Source: Natronomonas halophila (GTDB lineage Archaea > Halobacteriota > Halobacteria > Halobacteriales > Haloarculaceae). From it: a stretch of 64,000 bases of DNA. Shown here in pieces: positions 51,118 to 56,826 of the stretch (its first letter is position 1; the number at the start of each line of letters is the position of its first letter). Where the stretch lies: assembly GCF_013391085.1 (NCBI RefSeq), contig NZ_CP058334.1, forward strand, positions 2,046,001 to 2,110,000. Reading direction: 5' to 3'. The notes beneath the pieces are model-generated. The model saw only the letters and a program-made list of their open reading frames with translations, did not search any database and had not been told where the DNA came from. The position numbers were made by a program, and so were the translations under genes.

Positions 51118-53601
51118 ATGACCTCAAATCCCGTCCTGCGGCAGGACCCGATAATCGTTCTGCACGTCGACGACGACCCACAGATGCGGACCCTCGTGAA
51201 ATACAGCCTCGAACGCGTAAACTGCGCGTTCACCGTCCGAACAGCCGACGGTCCTGACGCTGCACTCGAGGAACTCGACGACGACGTCGAGTGTGTCATC
51301 TCGGATTACGAGATGCCGGGGATGAACGGGCTCGAACTCCTCGATGAAGTACGGGCCGAGCGGCCGGATATCCCCTTTATCCTCCTGACCGGGAAGGGCT
51401 CGGAGGACGTCGCAGGCGAGGCGGTGACGGCCGGCCTGACGGATTACTTCCAGAAGTCGGATATCGCCAAGCAGTTCCCGGTGTTGGCCCAGCGTATCGA
51501 AACCGCAGTCGAAGGCGAGCGCGCGGAAGTGAGCTACCGGGAACTGTTCGAGAAGGCCGTCGACGGCCTCGCGCTGAACGACCCCGAAACCGGTTCCTTC
51601 GTCGATGCCAACCCCGCTTTCAGGGACATCCTCGGGCTGAATCAGGCGGAACTGATGGCGATGAGTATCTCGGATATTCGGAGCGTCCCGCCACAGGACG
51701 AGCAGGACCCGACGCTGGTCGAGTACCTGCGACGGGCGACGGCGGAGGGGACGACAAGCACCGAAGAGTGCTGTCGGCGCCCCGACGGCGAGCGCTTCTG
51801 GGTCGAACTCCAGTTCAAACCCATCGAGGTGAAGGGCCACTCGCTGGTCCTGACGCAGGCGCGGGAAATCACCGAACGCAAGCGGTACGAACAGACGCTA
51901 TCGGCGCTGCACTCGGCGGTGACCGACATCGTCGGCGCCGAACAGTCCCGGCAGGTCACCGGCAGCGTCCTCTCGGCAGTCGAGGACCTGCTCGCGGCCG
52001 ACCGGGCGGCGGTGTTCCGCCACGCGCCGGCCGAAAACTGGCTGGAAGTCGTCGACGCCACGTCGCTACCAAGTGTTATCGACGAACTCCCGCTTGACCC
52101 CTCTCAGCCGCCCGCTCGCGCCTTCATCGACGGGACGACTATCACCGTCGATGGGGCCTCGGTGTTCGAACACGCTTCGGACGATGCTGACGATGGCCGG
52201 ACGCTGTTCGTACCCATCGGCTCGGCCGGCGTGCTCGCGGCCGGCTACGACGAGGCGACGTCCTTCGACGGCGACGACCGGGAGTTCGCGGAGATACTCG
52301 CAAACGCCGCGGCGGCGGCCTTCGAGCGCATCGAAAAGGAACGGGAAATCGATTCGAGTCGGGAGGAACTCCGCGAGCAGACCGCGGAACTCCAGCGGCT
52401 CGAACGCATCAACGCCGCGTTCCGCGAACTCAACGACACCCTGTTGAGCGCCGAGACGCGCGAGGAGGTCTTCGAGGTGGTCTGCGAGCAGTTGAGCGGC
52501 ATCGAGGGCGTCAAACTCGCCTGGATCGGCGCGCGGACCGACTCGGACGCCCTCGAACCGCAGGTATGGGCCGGCGATATCCCCCAGTATCTCGACAGCG
52601 CCGATTTCGAACCCGGGTCGAGCGACGAACCGGCGGCCGTCGCGGCCCGGACCGGCGACGCGGTTCGCGTCGCGAACACGGCGACGGACCTCCAGCGGAA
52701 ACCCTGGAAGCGGACGGCCCTCTCTCACGGCGTCGAGTCGGCGATGGCGCTTCCCATCGAGGCCGAGGGCGTTACCTTCGGCGTGCTCTCCGTCCTTGCG
52801 GGGGATAGAGCGGCGTTCAGCGGCCAGTTCGCGGACCTGCTGTCGGCGGTCGCGTCCTCGGTCGGTGAAACGGTCCACGCCATCGAGCAACGGCAGGGCA
52901 TCCGGGCGTCCGATACCGTCGAACTCACCTTCGAAATCACGGCCGACGACCACCCCCTCAAACGCCTCGCGGCCGACGCCGGCTGTGAACTGGAGGTCAC
53001 CGGCGTCATCTCCGAGCCGGACGATACCTGTCGGCTGTTCGTTACCGTCCACGGTGAGTCGCCGAGCCATCTCCAGACTGTCGCCGAGGAAATGAACGCT
53101 GTCCGTCGCGTGACGATTGCGACCGAGGACGACGATGGCGGCGCCGTGGAACTGCACCTCGAAGTGCCGCTGTTAGGCGTGGAACTGAACCAGTATGCGG
53201 TTCGCATCACGCGCTTGCTCGCGACCGCGGACTCCGTCCGGGCGACGCTGGAACTCGCCCACCCGCAGGACGTTCGGGACGTCGCCGCCGCCATCCGGGA
53301 GCGGTATCCGTCGGCGTCGCTGCGCACGAAACGCACCAACACCGAGGAACGCAGCGACTACGACCGCCTGCTCGCGTTCCGTGACTCGCTCACGCCGCGC
53401 CAGCGGGAAGTCGTCCACATGGCGTATCTCAACGGCTACTTCGAATCGCCGCGCCGCTGTACGGGCGAGGAACTCGGCGAGAAACTCGGTATCTCCGCAC
53501 AGGCCGTCTACCAGCACATCCGGAGCGCCGAACGCCGCCTGTTCGACGAGGCGTTCCGCCAGATTCTGACGGTATCGACGCCCGACGACCCGCCCGCATG
53601 A
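51118..53601 (+). CDS. receiver/PAS/GAF/Bat response regulator with HTH_10
   Basis: The 827-residue protein (ATG of MTSNPVLRQD) begins with a receiver domain: the acidic VDDDP pocket at 18-20, phosphoacceptor D63 in ISDYEMPGMNG, and LLTGKG. Then follow one PAS domain (about 140-260), two GAF domains (about 270-410 and 430-590), a Bat-type region and a C-terminal HTH_10 domain (LTPRQREVVHMAYLNGYFESPRR). It should be phosphorylated by a partner histidine kinase not in this window and bind DNA. A TATATAAAC element is at 51058-51066. Confidence 0.9.
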   Translation: MTSNPVLRQDPIIVLHVDDDPQMRTLVKYSLERVNCAFTVRTADGPDAALEELDDDVECVISDYEMPGMNGLELLDEVRAERPDIPFILLTGKGSEDVAGEAVTAGLTDYFQKSDIAKQFPVLAQRIETAVEGERAEVSYRELFEKAVDGLALNDPETGSFVDANPAFRDILGLNQAELMAMSISDIRSVPPQDEQDPTLVEYLRRATAEGTTSTEECCRRPDGERFWVELQFKPIEVKGHSLVLTQAREITERKRYEQTLSALHSAVTDIVGAEQSRQVTGSVLSAVEDLLAADRAAVFRHAPAENWLEVVDATSLPSVIDELPLDPSQPPARAFIDGTTITVDGASVFEHASDDADDGRTLFVPIGSAGVLAAGYDEATSFDGDDREFAEILANAAAAAFERIEKEREIDSSREELREQTAELQRLERINAAFRELNDTLLSAETREEVFEVVCEQLSGIEGVKLAWIGARTDSDALEPQVWAGDIPQYLDSADFEPGSSDEPAAVAARTGDAVRVANTATDLQRKPWKRTALSHGVESAMALPIEAEGVTFGVLSVLAGDRAAFSGQFADLLSAVASSVGETVHAIEQRQGIRASDTVELTFEITADDHPLKRLAADAGCELEVTGVISEPDDTCRLFVTVHGESPSHLQTVAEEMNAVRRVTIATEDDDGGAVELHLEVPLLGVELNQYAVRITRLLATADSVRATLELAHPQDVRDVAAAIRERYPSASLRTKRTNTEERSDYDRLLAFRDSLTPRQREVVHMAYLNGYFESPRRCTGEELGEKLGISAQAVYQHIRSAERRLFDEAFRQILTVSTPDDPPA

Positions 53602-53722: not shown

Positions 53723-54244
53723 ATGCAACGCAGAACTGTGATTGCCAGCATGGGAGCGATACTCGGAACCAGCGTCGGCGCAGCAGCCTACACCAACGCT
53801 AACGTGACTCGTGACGCGACCTTTACCGTCTCGACCGACGCGTCCTCGGCGCTCATCGGGCTCAACGCCGGCTCGACGACTGGTGTCACCGAGAGTGGCG
53901 ACGCGCTCTCGGTCTCGGTTCAGGACCTCAACACCAACGGCACGTTCACCTACGGCGACGGCACGAACATCGGTTCGTCCTACGCGTTCTCGATTACCAA
54001 CAACGACGGCGGCCAGCGCTCGTTCACACTGGGCTACGGCACCGCCGGCGTCACGTTCGAACTGTTCCAGCAGGGGACCGACTGGACGGACGCGACCTCC
54101 CTAGGCGTCGTCGACAGTGCGACGGACGTTACCTGGACCGCGGCCGCTGCCGAGGAGATTCGCGCGGTCATGACCGTCGACACCAGCGGCGTCGCCTCGG
54201 GTGCGACCGACCTGGACGGGACGCTGACCATCTCGGCGAACTAA
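53723..54244 (+). CDS. exported TasA/camelysin-like beta protein
   Basis: The 173-residue protein (ATG of MQRRTVIASMGAILG) has a signal peptide with RR and a short hydrophobic run ending in AAAYTNANVTRDATFTVSTD. The mature part is Ser/Thr-rich and beta-sheet rich, with LIGLNAGS, NNDGGQRSFTLGYGTAGVTFELFQQG and a final LTISAN. The length, signal and strand pattern resemble DUF1102 or TasA/camelysin-type fibre subunits. It is followed at 17 bases by a dedicated-looking signal peptidase, so it is a likely substrate of it. Confidence 0.72.
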   Translation: MQRRTVIASMGAILGTSVGAAAYTNANVTRDATFTVSTDASSALIGLNAGSTTGVTESGDALSVSVQDLNTNGTFTYGDGTNIGSSYAFSITNNDGGQRSFTLGYGTAGVTFELFQQGTDWTDATSLGVVDSATDVTWTAAAAEEIRAVMTVDTSGVASGATDLDGTLTISAN

Positions 54245-54260
54245 CCTCGCCGCTTCTTTC

Positions 54261-55241
54261 ATGATTCGACGAGCGCTGGCACTCGTAGCGGTTGGTGGCT
54301 TCCTGCTGTTGGTACTGCCAGGGACGCCGCTCCAGCTCTCGTACGTCTACAGCGACAGTATGGAACCCACCATCGGACAGGGTGACGGCTATATCGTCGG
54401 GCCGGCCGGTGACATAACGGCGGGCGACATCATCACGTTCGATTCGGAGTCCCGCGGCGAGTACGTCACACACCGCGTCGTCGCGGTTACTGACGACGGC
54501 TACATCACACAAGGTGACAACAACCCATCCACCGACCAGGCCGTCGGCCACCCCGTCGTGACTGACGAGAGCGTCGTCGGGACCGTTCTCGCCGTCCGCG
54601 GCCAACCCATCGTCATCCCGGGGCTTGCCGGCATCGCGTCCGCCCTTTCGACGTACTGGCCGCTCGGCGTGCTCGCCGTCCTGCTCGGCGGTGGCCTCAT
54701 CGAACGCAATCCCCGCGCTCGGGACCTCGTTCGCGTGAACGACCTGATGACGCCGCTCGTGTTCACCGCGGTCGTCGGGACCGCCCTCGCGCTGGCGTAC
54801 GCGGTGCCGACCTACACGATGGCCTTTACCGCCGTCGTCACCGACGACGGTGGCGGCCGCATCATCGCCGTCGGCGAGTCCGCGACCCGGTCGTTCGAGG
54901 TCGCTGCCGGCCCTCGATTTACCTACCAGTTCGTCGAGGGAAGCGGCGTCACGGTCCTCGACGTGGTCGCGAACGGCGACACCGCCGACGTCGAAATCGA
55001 GGTTCCCGCACAGTCGACCGGCGGGCTCTACGAGGCCACGGTGACGACCCATTATTACCCCGCGGTTCTCCCCTACCGTCTCGTCAGCGGCCTGCACGCG
55101 ATTCATCCCGTGGCGGCGTCGTTCGCCTCCATCGGCACCATCGTCGCGCCGCTGTATGCGGTTCACCGGCTCGTCGTCGACGGCCGGGCGCCAATCGTAA
55201 GCAAGTCGCGGTCACGCGGCGCGTGGTGGAAGCCCCGATGA
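54261..55241 (+). CDS. SipW-type signal peptidase I with C-terminal extension
   Basis: The 326-residue protein has an N-terminal helix and then the S26B catalytic motifs: S33 in YVYSDSMEPT, H71 in YVTHRVVAV and D86 in YITQGDNN. The catalytic base is His, as in archaeal/ER-type and Bacillus SipW enzymes, not Lys. After residue 120 come extra helices and an external beta-rich domain of about 100 residues that ordinary signal peptidases lack, then a last helix near 285-305. It should cleave exported proteins at the outer membrane face. Its end overlaps the next gene (ATGA). Confidence 0.88.
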   Translation: MIRRALALVAVGGFLLLVLPGTPLQLSYVYSDSMEPTIGQGDGYIVGPAGDITAGDIITFDSESRGEYVTHRVVAVTDDGYITQGDNNPSTDQAVGHPVVTDESVVGTVLAVRGQPIVIPGLAGIASALSTYWPLGVLAVLLGGGLIERNPRARDLVRVNDLMTPLVFTAVVGTALALAYAVPTYTMAFTAVVTDDGGGRIIAVGESATRSFEVAAGPRFTYQFVEGSGVTVLDVVANGDTADVEIEVPAQSTGGLYEATVTTHYYPAVLPYRLVSGLHAIHPVAASFASIGTIVAPLYAVHRLVVDGRAPIVSKSRSRGAWWKPR

Positions 55242-55735
55242 GTCGTGGCCGTTCCCGGGCGCGAACCGTCCGGATTCTTCCCCTCGCCGTCCTGCTGGTC
55301 GCCGTTTTGCTCGTCGGGGCGACGGTTCTGCCGGCGGCATCCTACTCGACCGGCGACGTCGGCCGCGGGGCTTCCCTCGGCGTGGCCGACGACCCACAGG
55401 CGATTCTCGGGCTCGATACCGCCTCGGGCGTCAGAATCGACCATACCGACCAACTCGTCGTCGTCACCAACAACCTCGACAGCGCCGCGACGGTGACGGT
55501 CACGCTGGACGGCGACTCGGCGACGAAAGCCGACCTCGTCGTCGACGGCGTCAACGTGGGCAACGAGTACACCACCGACCTGAACCGCTCCGAAAGCAGC
55601 ACAATCGACGTCTACGTGGGTAACGACACGTCCTACGTCGGTGAGAGCATCGTCTTCGACGCGTCCGCGGACGGCACCGATATCGACGCCGTCGCCACGA
55701 ACCGGAGCGCAGCCATCGAGGACAGTACCACATGA
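55238..55735 (+). CDS. second exported beta-rich protein of the signal-peptidase operon
   Basis: The 165-residue protein starts MSRGRSRARTVRILPLAVLLVAVLLVGATVLPAASY, a basic and hydrophobic signal. The mature part is beta-rich (LVVVTNNLDSAATVTVTLDGD and VYVGNDTSYVGESIVF) and has several N-x-S/T sequons (NRS, NDT, NRS). It is similar in size and style to the operon's first protein. Overlaps of ATGA with both neighbours mean tight translational coupling. Confidence 0.72.
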   Translation: MSRGRSRARTVRILPLAVLLVAVLLVGATVLPAASYSTGDVGRGASLGVADDPQAILGLDTASGVRIDHTDQLVVVTNNLDSAATVTVTLDGDSATKADLVVDGVNVGNEYTTDLNRSESSTIDVYVGNDTSYVGESIVFDASADGTDIDAVATNRSAAIEDSTT

Positions 55736-56826
55736 TGCCGACTGCCTCCGCGAAAATCCGGTATCTCGTCGCGACGAGCGGCCGAACGATTCGACAACTC
55801 GGCGCGCTCCTCCTCTTGGTTGGGGTCGTGGGCGTCGCGCTGACGATGCTGTTCCCGCCGACGATGGCCGTGGCGGAGGTCACCGACCGGTCGGTCGTCG
55901 AAACCGAGACGACCACCACGGCGACCGTCGAGGGCGACCACGCGATGTACACCGCCGGCGAGAACCTGACCGACGAACCGGTATACGTCCGGAGCGTCGC
56001 GCCGAACGTCACGGTGACCGCAACGACGCGCGCACCGCCGGACGGCGTCGCGGTCGACCAGCGGGTCTCCATCGTCTACGAAGCGTCCTCGAGGGAAGAC
56101 GGCGTCTTCCGCGAGCAGAAACAGGCCGTGACGGCAACGTCCGGTACCATCGAACGCGATGGCGAGACCGTCGAAAGCGTCGTGTCGCTTCGGGTCGCCG
56201 ATATCGCGGCGACGCTGGAGGCGATGCGCGAGGAAATCGGGGACGCCGGTCTCGTGAACGCGTACCTCAACATCGAAACGGTATACGCGAGCGACGGCTA
56301 CGAGGGTACCCTCGAAGACCAGACCCAACTCGCCGTGAGCGACGACTCCTACCGCATCCCGGCGCTCGAACTCCGAGAGGAACACCGAACGACGACGTCG
56401 AAGGTAGAACCGGTCGCGACCGAGGTGTTCCAGCCGACGGTTCCGACCCTCGGTCCCGTCGTCGTTCCGCATCTGACGCCGGTGTTCGGCTTCCTCGCGT
56501 TGTTCGGTGTCGTGCTTCTCGGCACGGTCCGGTACGGCCGCACCGAGTTCGATGCCGACCGCGAGCGCGTCACGCTTCACCGCCTCCGCTACGGCGAATG
56601 GATCTCGGGCGGTGAACTCCCCCCGGCGCTGGCCGACCACCCGCTTGTCGTGCCCGTGGAGTCGCTCGAAGCGCTCGTCGACGTCGCCATCGACTCGGAT
56701 ACGCGCGTGATTTACGACGCCGACCAGGAGTGTTACGCCGTCATGACGAGCGTGGCCGTCTTCGTCTTCTATCCCGACACCGTCGGTGGCTTCGTGTTCA
56801 ATAACGGCAACCGGCCGGAGTCGTAG
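55732..56826 (+). CDS. DUF5305-like membrane protein
   Basis: The 364-residue protein has an N-terminal helix (LGALLLLVGVVGVALTMLFPP), an extracellular beta-rich domain (about 40-220) that includes NLTDEPVYVRSVAPNVTVTATTRAPP, a second helix (VVVPHLTPVFGFLALFGVVLLGT) and a cytoplasmic domain ending FVFYPDTVGGFVFNNG. This two-helix layout and context match haloarchaeal DUF5305 proteins found beside SipW-type signal peptidases. It is the last gene of the four-gene operon. Confidence 0.75.
   Translation: MMPTASAKIRYLVATSGRTIRQLGALLLLVGVVGVALTMLFPPTMAVAEVTDRSVVETETTTTATVEGDHAMYTAGENLTDEPVYVRSVAPNVTVTATTRAPPDGVAVDQRVSIVYEASSREDGVFREQKQAVTATSGTIERDGETVESVVSLRVADIAATLEAMREEIGDAGLVNAYLNIETVYASDGYEGTLEDQTQLAVSDDSYRIPALELREEHRTTTSKVEPVATEVFQPTVPTLGPVVVPHLTPVFGFLALFGVVLLGTVRYGRTEFDADRERVTLHRLRYGEWISGGELPPALADHPLVVPVESLEALVDVAIDSDTRVIYDADQECYAVMTSVAVFVFYPDTVGGFVFNNGNRPES

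Follow-up and report, generated by a model that had tools for sequence, protein, structure and literature searches.

The closest described systems are found in both bacteria and archaea. In Bacillus, TasA is a donor-strand fibre protein with an aromatic residue at P2′ (PMC9674648, PMC10151520, PMC10269814). Once released, its N-terminal strand inserts into the following subunit (PMC9674648). The aromatic P2′ makes TasA a poor substrate of LepB from E. coli but is tolerated by SipW (PMC10269814). In Clostridium, a dedicated two-component system regulates the sipW-bsaA operon (PMC7395162). Among archaea, the thread subunit of Sulfolobus is exported through a signal of the signal-peptidase-I type, and its gene cluster contains no assembly factor that can be definitively assigned (PMC9715654). 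Further archaeal systems are represented by the Taf families (NCBIfam NF052520-NF052523) and by the solved pilin of PDB entry 9p0a; a search for Taf, 9p0a or DUF5305 found no paper in the part of the literature covered. The operon presented here bears on the assembly of archaeal fibres without known chaperones or ushers.

The window, i.e., the whole stretch of 64,000 nucleotides that was analysed, corresponds to positions 2046001-2110000 of a haloarchaeal genome of 3.21 Mb in a single contig. The operon consists of four genes on the same strand (Table 1), every one chosen by codon-position scoring. Genes 1 and 2 are separated by 16 nt, and genes 2 and 3, as well as genes 3 and 4, overlap by 4 nt (ATGA), which, together with the coordinates, bears out the tight coupling described in the initial annotation. 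The gene found 3′ of the operon is unrelated. In our reading, the four genes probably form a self-sufficient archaeal fibre (fimbria) system, processed by a SipW-like peptidase and assembled by donor-strand exchange. The Bat-type regulator encoded upstream is a possible regulator of the operon, its membership of the unit being unproven. A sensor kinase, a PAS sensor, or a Bat-type regulator lies within ~4 kb in 9 of the 14 compact operons inspected, but this is a lead only, because genes of this kind abound in haloarchaea and several loci are close relatives of each other.

Table 1. Features of the operon and of its upstream neighbour (positions within the window)
Feature	Position	Strand	Remarks
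Bat-type regulator	51118-53601	+	receiver, PAS, GAF, BAT, and HTH_10 domains; 121 nt upstream of the operon
Gene 1, beta protein 1	53723-54244	+	173 aa; exported; DUF1102/Taf-like superfamily
Signal peptide of beta protein 1 (residues 1-21)	53723-53785	+	twin Arg at 3-4; predicted cut A21|A22
Mature N-terminus of beta protein 1, AYTNANVTRD	53786-53815	+	candidate donor strand with an aromatic P2′ residue; no structure in the AF2 model of the monomer
Gene 2, SipW-like S26 signal peptidase	54261-55241	+	326 aa; C-terminal membrane/ectodomain extension
Catalytic Ser33, His71, Asp86 of gene 2	54357-54359, 54471-54473, 54516-54518	+	invariant alignment columns
C-terminal extension of the peptidase	54795-55121	+	predicted outside beta domain; precedes the last membrane span
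Gene 3, beta protein 2	55238-55735	+	165 aa; exported; TafC-like superfamily
Mature N-terminus of beta protein 2, SYSTGDVGRGASLGVADD	55340-55393	+	second candidate donor strand; motif anchored at S35/Y36/R43
Gene 4, DUF5305 protein	55732-56826	+	364 aa; two membrane spans

Genes of this type co-occur. A genome-wide scan with the peptidase alignment gave 80 loci in Halobacteria, Thermococcus, and Archaeoglobi and, using profiles of the four products, DUF5305 was found at ≤3.5 kb from the peptidase in 67 of them and a relative of the beta proteins in 64. The full order (beta protein 1, peptidase, beta protein 2, and DUF5305 on one strand) is present in at least 12 loci ranging from Halobacteria to Thermococcus, 12 of the 80 being counted under strict rules. 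Four Thermococcus loci, included in this count, keep the order of the operon, with beta protein 1 represented by two tandem genes. Because other genera, and also Thermococcus, show the same arrangement, the four-gene unit is not a product of chance. The 80 loci were seeded by the peptidase and hence are not independent; the reverse count, seeded by DUF5305, places 116 of the 126 DUF5305 hits in 146 related genomes at ≤8 kb from such a peptidase, when ~0.7 would be expected at random.

The phylogenetic tree of 36 peptidases, limited to the sequences with the SxSM motif, groups gene 2 with ten orthologues from compact operons (support 100/100). This clade is separate from the halobacterial type associated with multi-pilin loci and from the peptidases of Thermococcus and Archaeoglobi. 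The compact-type peptidase has a patchy distribution (10 of the 146 genomes at a cut of 280 bits). Within the genus, one genome of 20 has the compact operon, yet the operon is spread over five families, a pattern suggestive of transfer or repeated loss.

The genome contains a second fibre locus at 2385.4-2395.3 kb (L033, L125-L136), where TafC-like proteins are encoded on the other strand. Since this locus has its own SipW-like peptidase, its own DUF5305, and at least five pilin relatives (TafA/TafE-like subunits), the operon might supply no more than minor subunits (starter, tip, or anchor) for the main fibre made there. We regard such an accessory role as unlikely: the operon owns a peptidase and a DUF5305 protein, the two peptidase types fall in separate clades, and three genomes (G029, G118, and G088) hold relatives of the pilins of this operon and no others. 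In these three genomes, the pilin family is represented by the compact operon alone, and G029, which is 99% complete, has a single copy each of the peptidase and of DUF5305. Hence, the four genes probably make up a complete unit, and there appear to be archaea that possess no other fibre system of this kind.

The product of gene 2 matches Peptidase_S26 of Pfam (24.9 bits, cut-off 22.9) and TIGR02228 (65.5, cut-off 51.85), and it stays below the model of the Bacillus SipW, NF046067 (41.9 bits for a cut-off of 190). The catalytic residues had been placed correctly in the initial annotation, and all three are unchanged across eight orthologues of gene 2. The His base was also considered as a mark of SipW, and this we reject. 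The genome has three S26 peptidases: gene 2, the enzyme encoded in the second fibre locus, and one at ~1645 kb. The last, probably the housekeeping peptidase, carries the same Ser/His/Asp motifs as gene 2. The His base is ordinary among archaea and therefore is not evidence for SipW. The assignment of gene 2 to the SipW type rests instead on linkage and on substrate features: peptidases of this type are genetically linked to genes of fibre proteins bearing a SipW-type cleavage region, so that the idea of a SipW-like peptidase encoded beside its likely substrates stands. The protein is much longer than the SipW model, which has 189 positions, and includes extra membrane spans and a beta-rich stretch. 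The predicted topology of the C-terminal extension draws in part on the membrane spans of the orthologues. A match of the outside domain in this extension to any known family was looked for, and none was found.

Both beta proteins carry a cleavage region of the SipW type. In beta protein 1, the predicted cut was placed by alignment to a conserved A-[F/Y]-x6-R motif, whose A and R are invariant in 51 sequences of the family and whose start aligns with AF, the start of mature TasA (PDB 8aur). An aromatic residue occupies P2′, as in TasA, in 90 of the 112 relatives of the beta proteins. Export signals at the N-terminus of the products of genes 1 and 3, together with all-beta predictions for both, agree with their earlier description as exported beta proteins.

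The kinship of the beta proteins with pilins runs through their relatives, because the proteins of the window match almost nothing by themselves: against NCBIfam no model was matched, DUF1102 appeared only below threshold, and both score under the cut-off of every Taf model. Even the closest orthologues of the operon reach E values of only 0.04 to 0.008 with the Taf models. Their relatives do give matches. The profile of the relatives of beta protein 1 (A2, 51 rows), which includes Taf-type members, finds the chain of 9p0a annotated as Pilin with E = 2.2e-34, and the profile of the relatives of beta protein 2 (A3, 31 rows) finds it with E = 1.6e-10. Among the 51 relatives of beta protein 1, DUF1102 matches 25, and TafE, TafA, and TafC of NCBIfam match 29, 28, and 11, respectively; TafC also matches 22 of the 31 relatives of beta protein 2. 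The alignments of the two beta proteins match each other (hhalign 98.8%, 5e-17), and by sequence they belong to one family. Because signal peptides can be misleading, the comparison was repeated on the globular domain, after removal of the signal and of the first 24 mature residues. The type of this operon then matches the Taf type (hhalign 98.0%, 3e-13) and the DUF1102 type of Thermococcus and Archaeoglobus (91.6%, 8e-7). A likeness confined to the signal peptide and the N-terminal motif is thus rejected, since it persists in the absence of both. The homology to the solved pilin and to the Taf families lends support to the earlier proposal of an extracellular fibre.

The AF2 models of both proteins are beta sandwiches with free N-termini, of which the first 10 to 19 residues are unstructured. 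The model of beta protein 1 is all beta with a pLDDT of 87 (58 in the N-terminal block), and that of beta protein 2 is all beta with a pLDDT of 89.6 (50-59 in the unstructured residues ~1-19). In Foldseek, beta protein 1 is matched best by monomeric forms of the donor-strand pilin FimA (E = 1e-4). TM-scores are low (≤0.39 in the top three), and the Sulfolobus thread subunit appears at rank 34. The folds closest to beta protein 2 are Ig-like domains of a generic kind, among them those of complement C3 and of pilus chaperones. The beta protein 2 of G118 (L044:4629-6578, minus strand) is 650 aa long. Behind its pilin-like domain it carries two malectin domains and one CBM35 domain and, from this domain composition, is likely a sugar-binding fibre tip.

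The generic Ig-like folds of beta protein 2, and the malectin and CBM35 domains in one of its relatives, would also suit secreted monomeric proteins of the surface or associated with the S-layer, or adhesins, released by a dedicated peptidase and forming no polymer. This we find quite improbable, because both beta families match a solved pilin by profile and have conserved free N-termini, which are typical of donor strands. A true TasA/camelysin matrix fibre, orthologous to that of Bacillus, seems to us very improbable: although the same gene types adjoin each other, the cleavage region is alike (PMC10269814), and a relationship of AbpA from Pyrobaculum to TasA has been reported (Wang 2022, cited in PMC10151520), the profile aligned with a single TasA sequence over the signal peptide only, the family profile found no TasA chain in PDB (8aur, 5of1), TasA is outside the top 50 folds of each of the two beta proteins, and Peptidase_M73 is absent from the Pfam matches of the relatives of beta protein 1. 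The likeness to tapA-sipW-tasA drawn in the initial annotation thus remains a good description of how the operon may work, but kinship with TasA itself is not supported by these searches. The suggested structural comparison with TasA and camelysin returned all-beta sandwiches for both proteins, without TasA among the best 50 Foldseek matches.

The product of gene 4, described earlier as a DUF5305-like protein with two helices, is a genuine DUF5305 (PF17231; 105.3 bits for a cut-off of 29, E = 4.1e-30). In an alignment of 27 sequences, the family shows two membrane spans ~220 residues apart, an outside domain of ~200 residues, and a conserved inner tail. This tail (56585-56770) carries the conserved pattern EWIS-G...SLEDLVD-AIDxDxRVI-D...Y, which is recognisable in Thermococcus too (alignment A4). 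One DUF5305 open frame (L034:2313-6104, minus strand) has 1264 aa, ~900 residues above the usual length, and is either a fusion or a gene-calling artefact. The linkage of DUF5305 with the peptidase suggests an anchor or an assembly factor, and this is the least certain step of our reading. A profile link among the extra domain of the peptidase, the outside domain of DUF5305, and the subunits was looked for and none was found, which leaves self-capping by a pilin-like domain unsupported. We put forward tentatively, as a possibility to which we give rather low weight, that DUF5305 and the C-terminal outside domain of the peptidase might act together as a platform for assembly at the membrane, functionally the archaeal equivalent of a chaperone and an usher. 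Such a platform would hold freshly cut subunits and hand them to the growing fibre, thereby coupling cleavage and donor-strand exchange in a single complex kept from Thermococci to Halobacteria.

For the self-sufficient fibre that we favour, the following mechanism can be proposed. The two beta proteins would leave the cell as precursors, and the SipW-like peptidase, with its catalytic domain outward, would cut immediately before the conserved A-[F/Y], freeing an unstructured and conserved N-terminal segment. By analogy with the strand logic of TasA, we infer that this segment may act as the donor strand and fill the groove in the beta sandwich of the next subunit, and the subunits would polymerise at the cell surface without ATP. 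The sugar-binding domains in the beta protein 2 of G118 suggest that beta protein 1 is the likely shaft subunit and beta protein 2 a probable accessory, likely tip, adhesive, or starter. DUF5305 would be the likely anchor or assembly partner, perhaps together with the outside domain of the peptidase. The operon would then be close to the smallest conceivable set, comprising a pair of subunits, a peptidase, and a membrane partner. Part of these results may already be in print; the firm tie between DUF5305 and the peptidase seems to be new, and with DUF5305 tied to fibre peptidases at so large a majority of its sites, its role is now testable. The value of the analysis lies in this link and in the minimal gene set.

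The chaperone-usher pilin FimA, the best fold match of beta protein 1, would have the donor-strand logic in common with the operon, which lacks a chaperone, an usher, and a sequence link to FimA. The tapA-sipW-tasA operon of Bacillus and sipW-bsaA of Clostridium have, as here, a dedicated Ser-His peptidase beside exported fibre proteins, and the clostridial two-component system is comparable to the sensor and Bat genes near the archaeal operon. In contrast with these bacterial systems, homology of the subunits is not demonstrable, the archaeal peptidase carries an additional domain on the outside, and DUF5305 has no counterpart. AbpA of Pyrobaculum and the Sulfolobus thread Saci_0406 are archaeal donor-strand fibres, as the product of the operon would be. 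The thread subunit is a distant fold match of beta protein 1; the profiles of the operon gave no sequence match to the chains of AbpA or Saci_0406, nor did the Thermococcus/Archaeoglobus profile find AbpA in PDB. The closest relatives are the Taf families and 9p0a, whose subunits are homologous to those of the operon over the globular domain, and the Taf-like locus of the same genome also includes SipW and DUF5305. Compared with Taf, the operon is compact, with two subunits in four genes, and its peptidase belongs to a separate clade. In conclusion, we regard the operon as a compact version of archaeal fimbriae that were already known.
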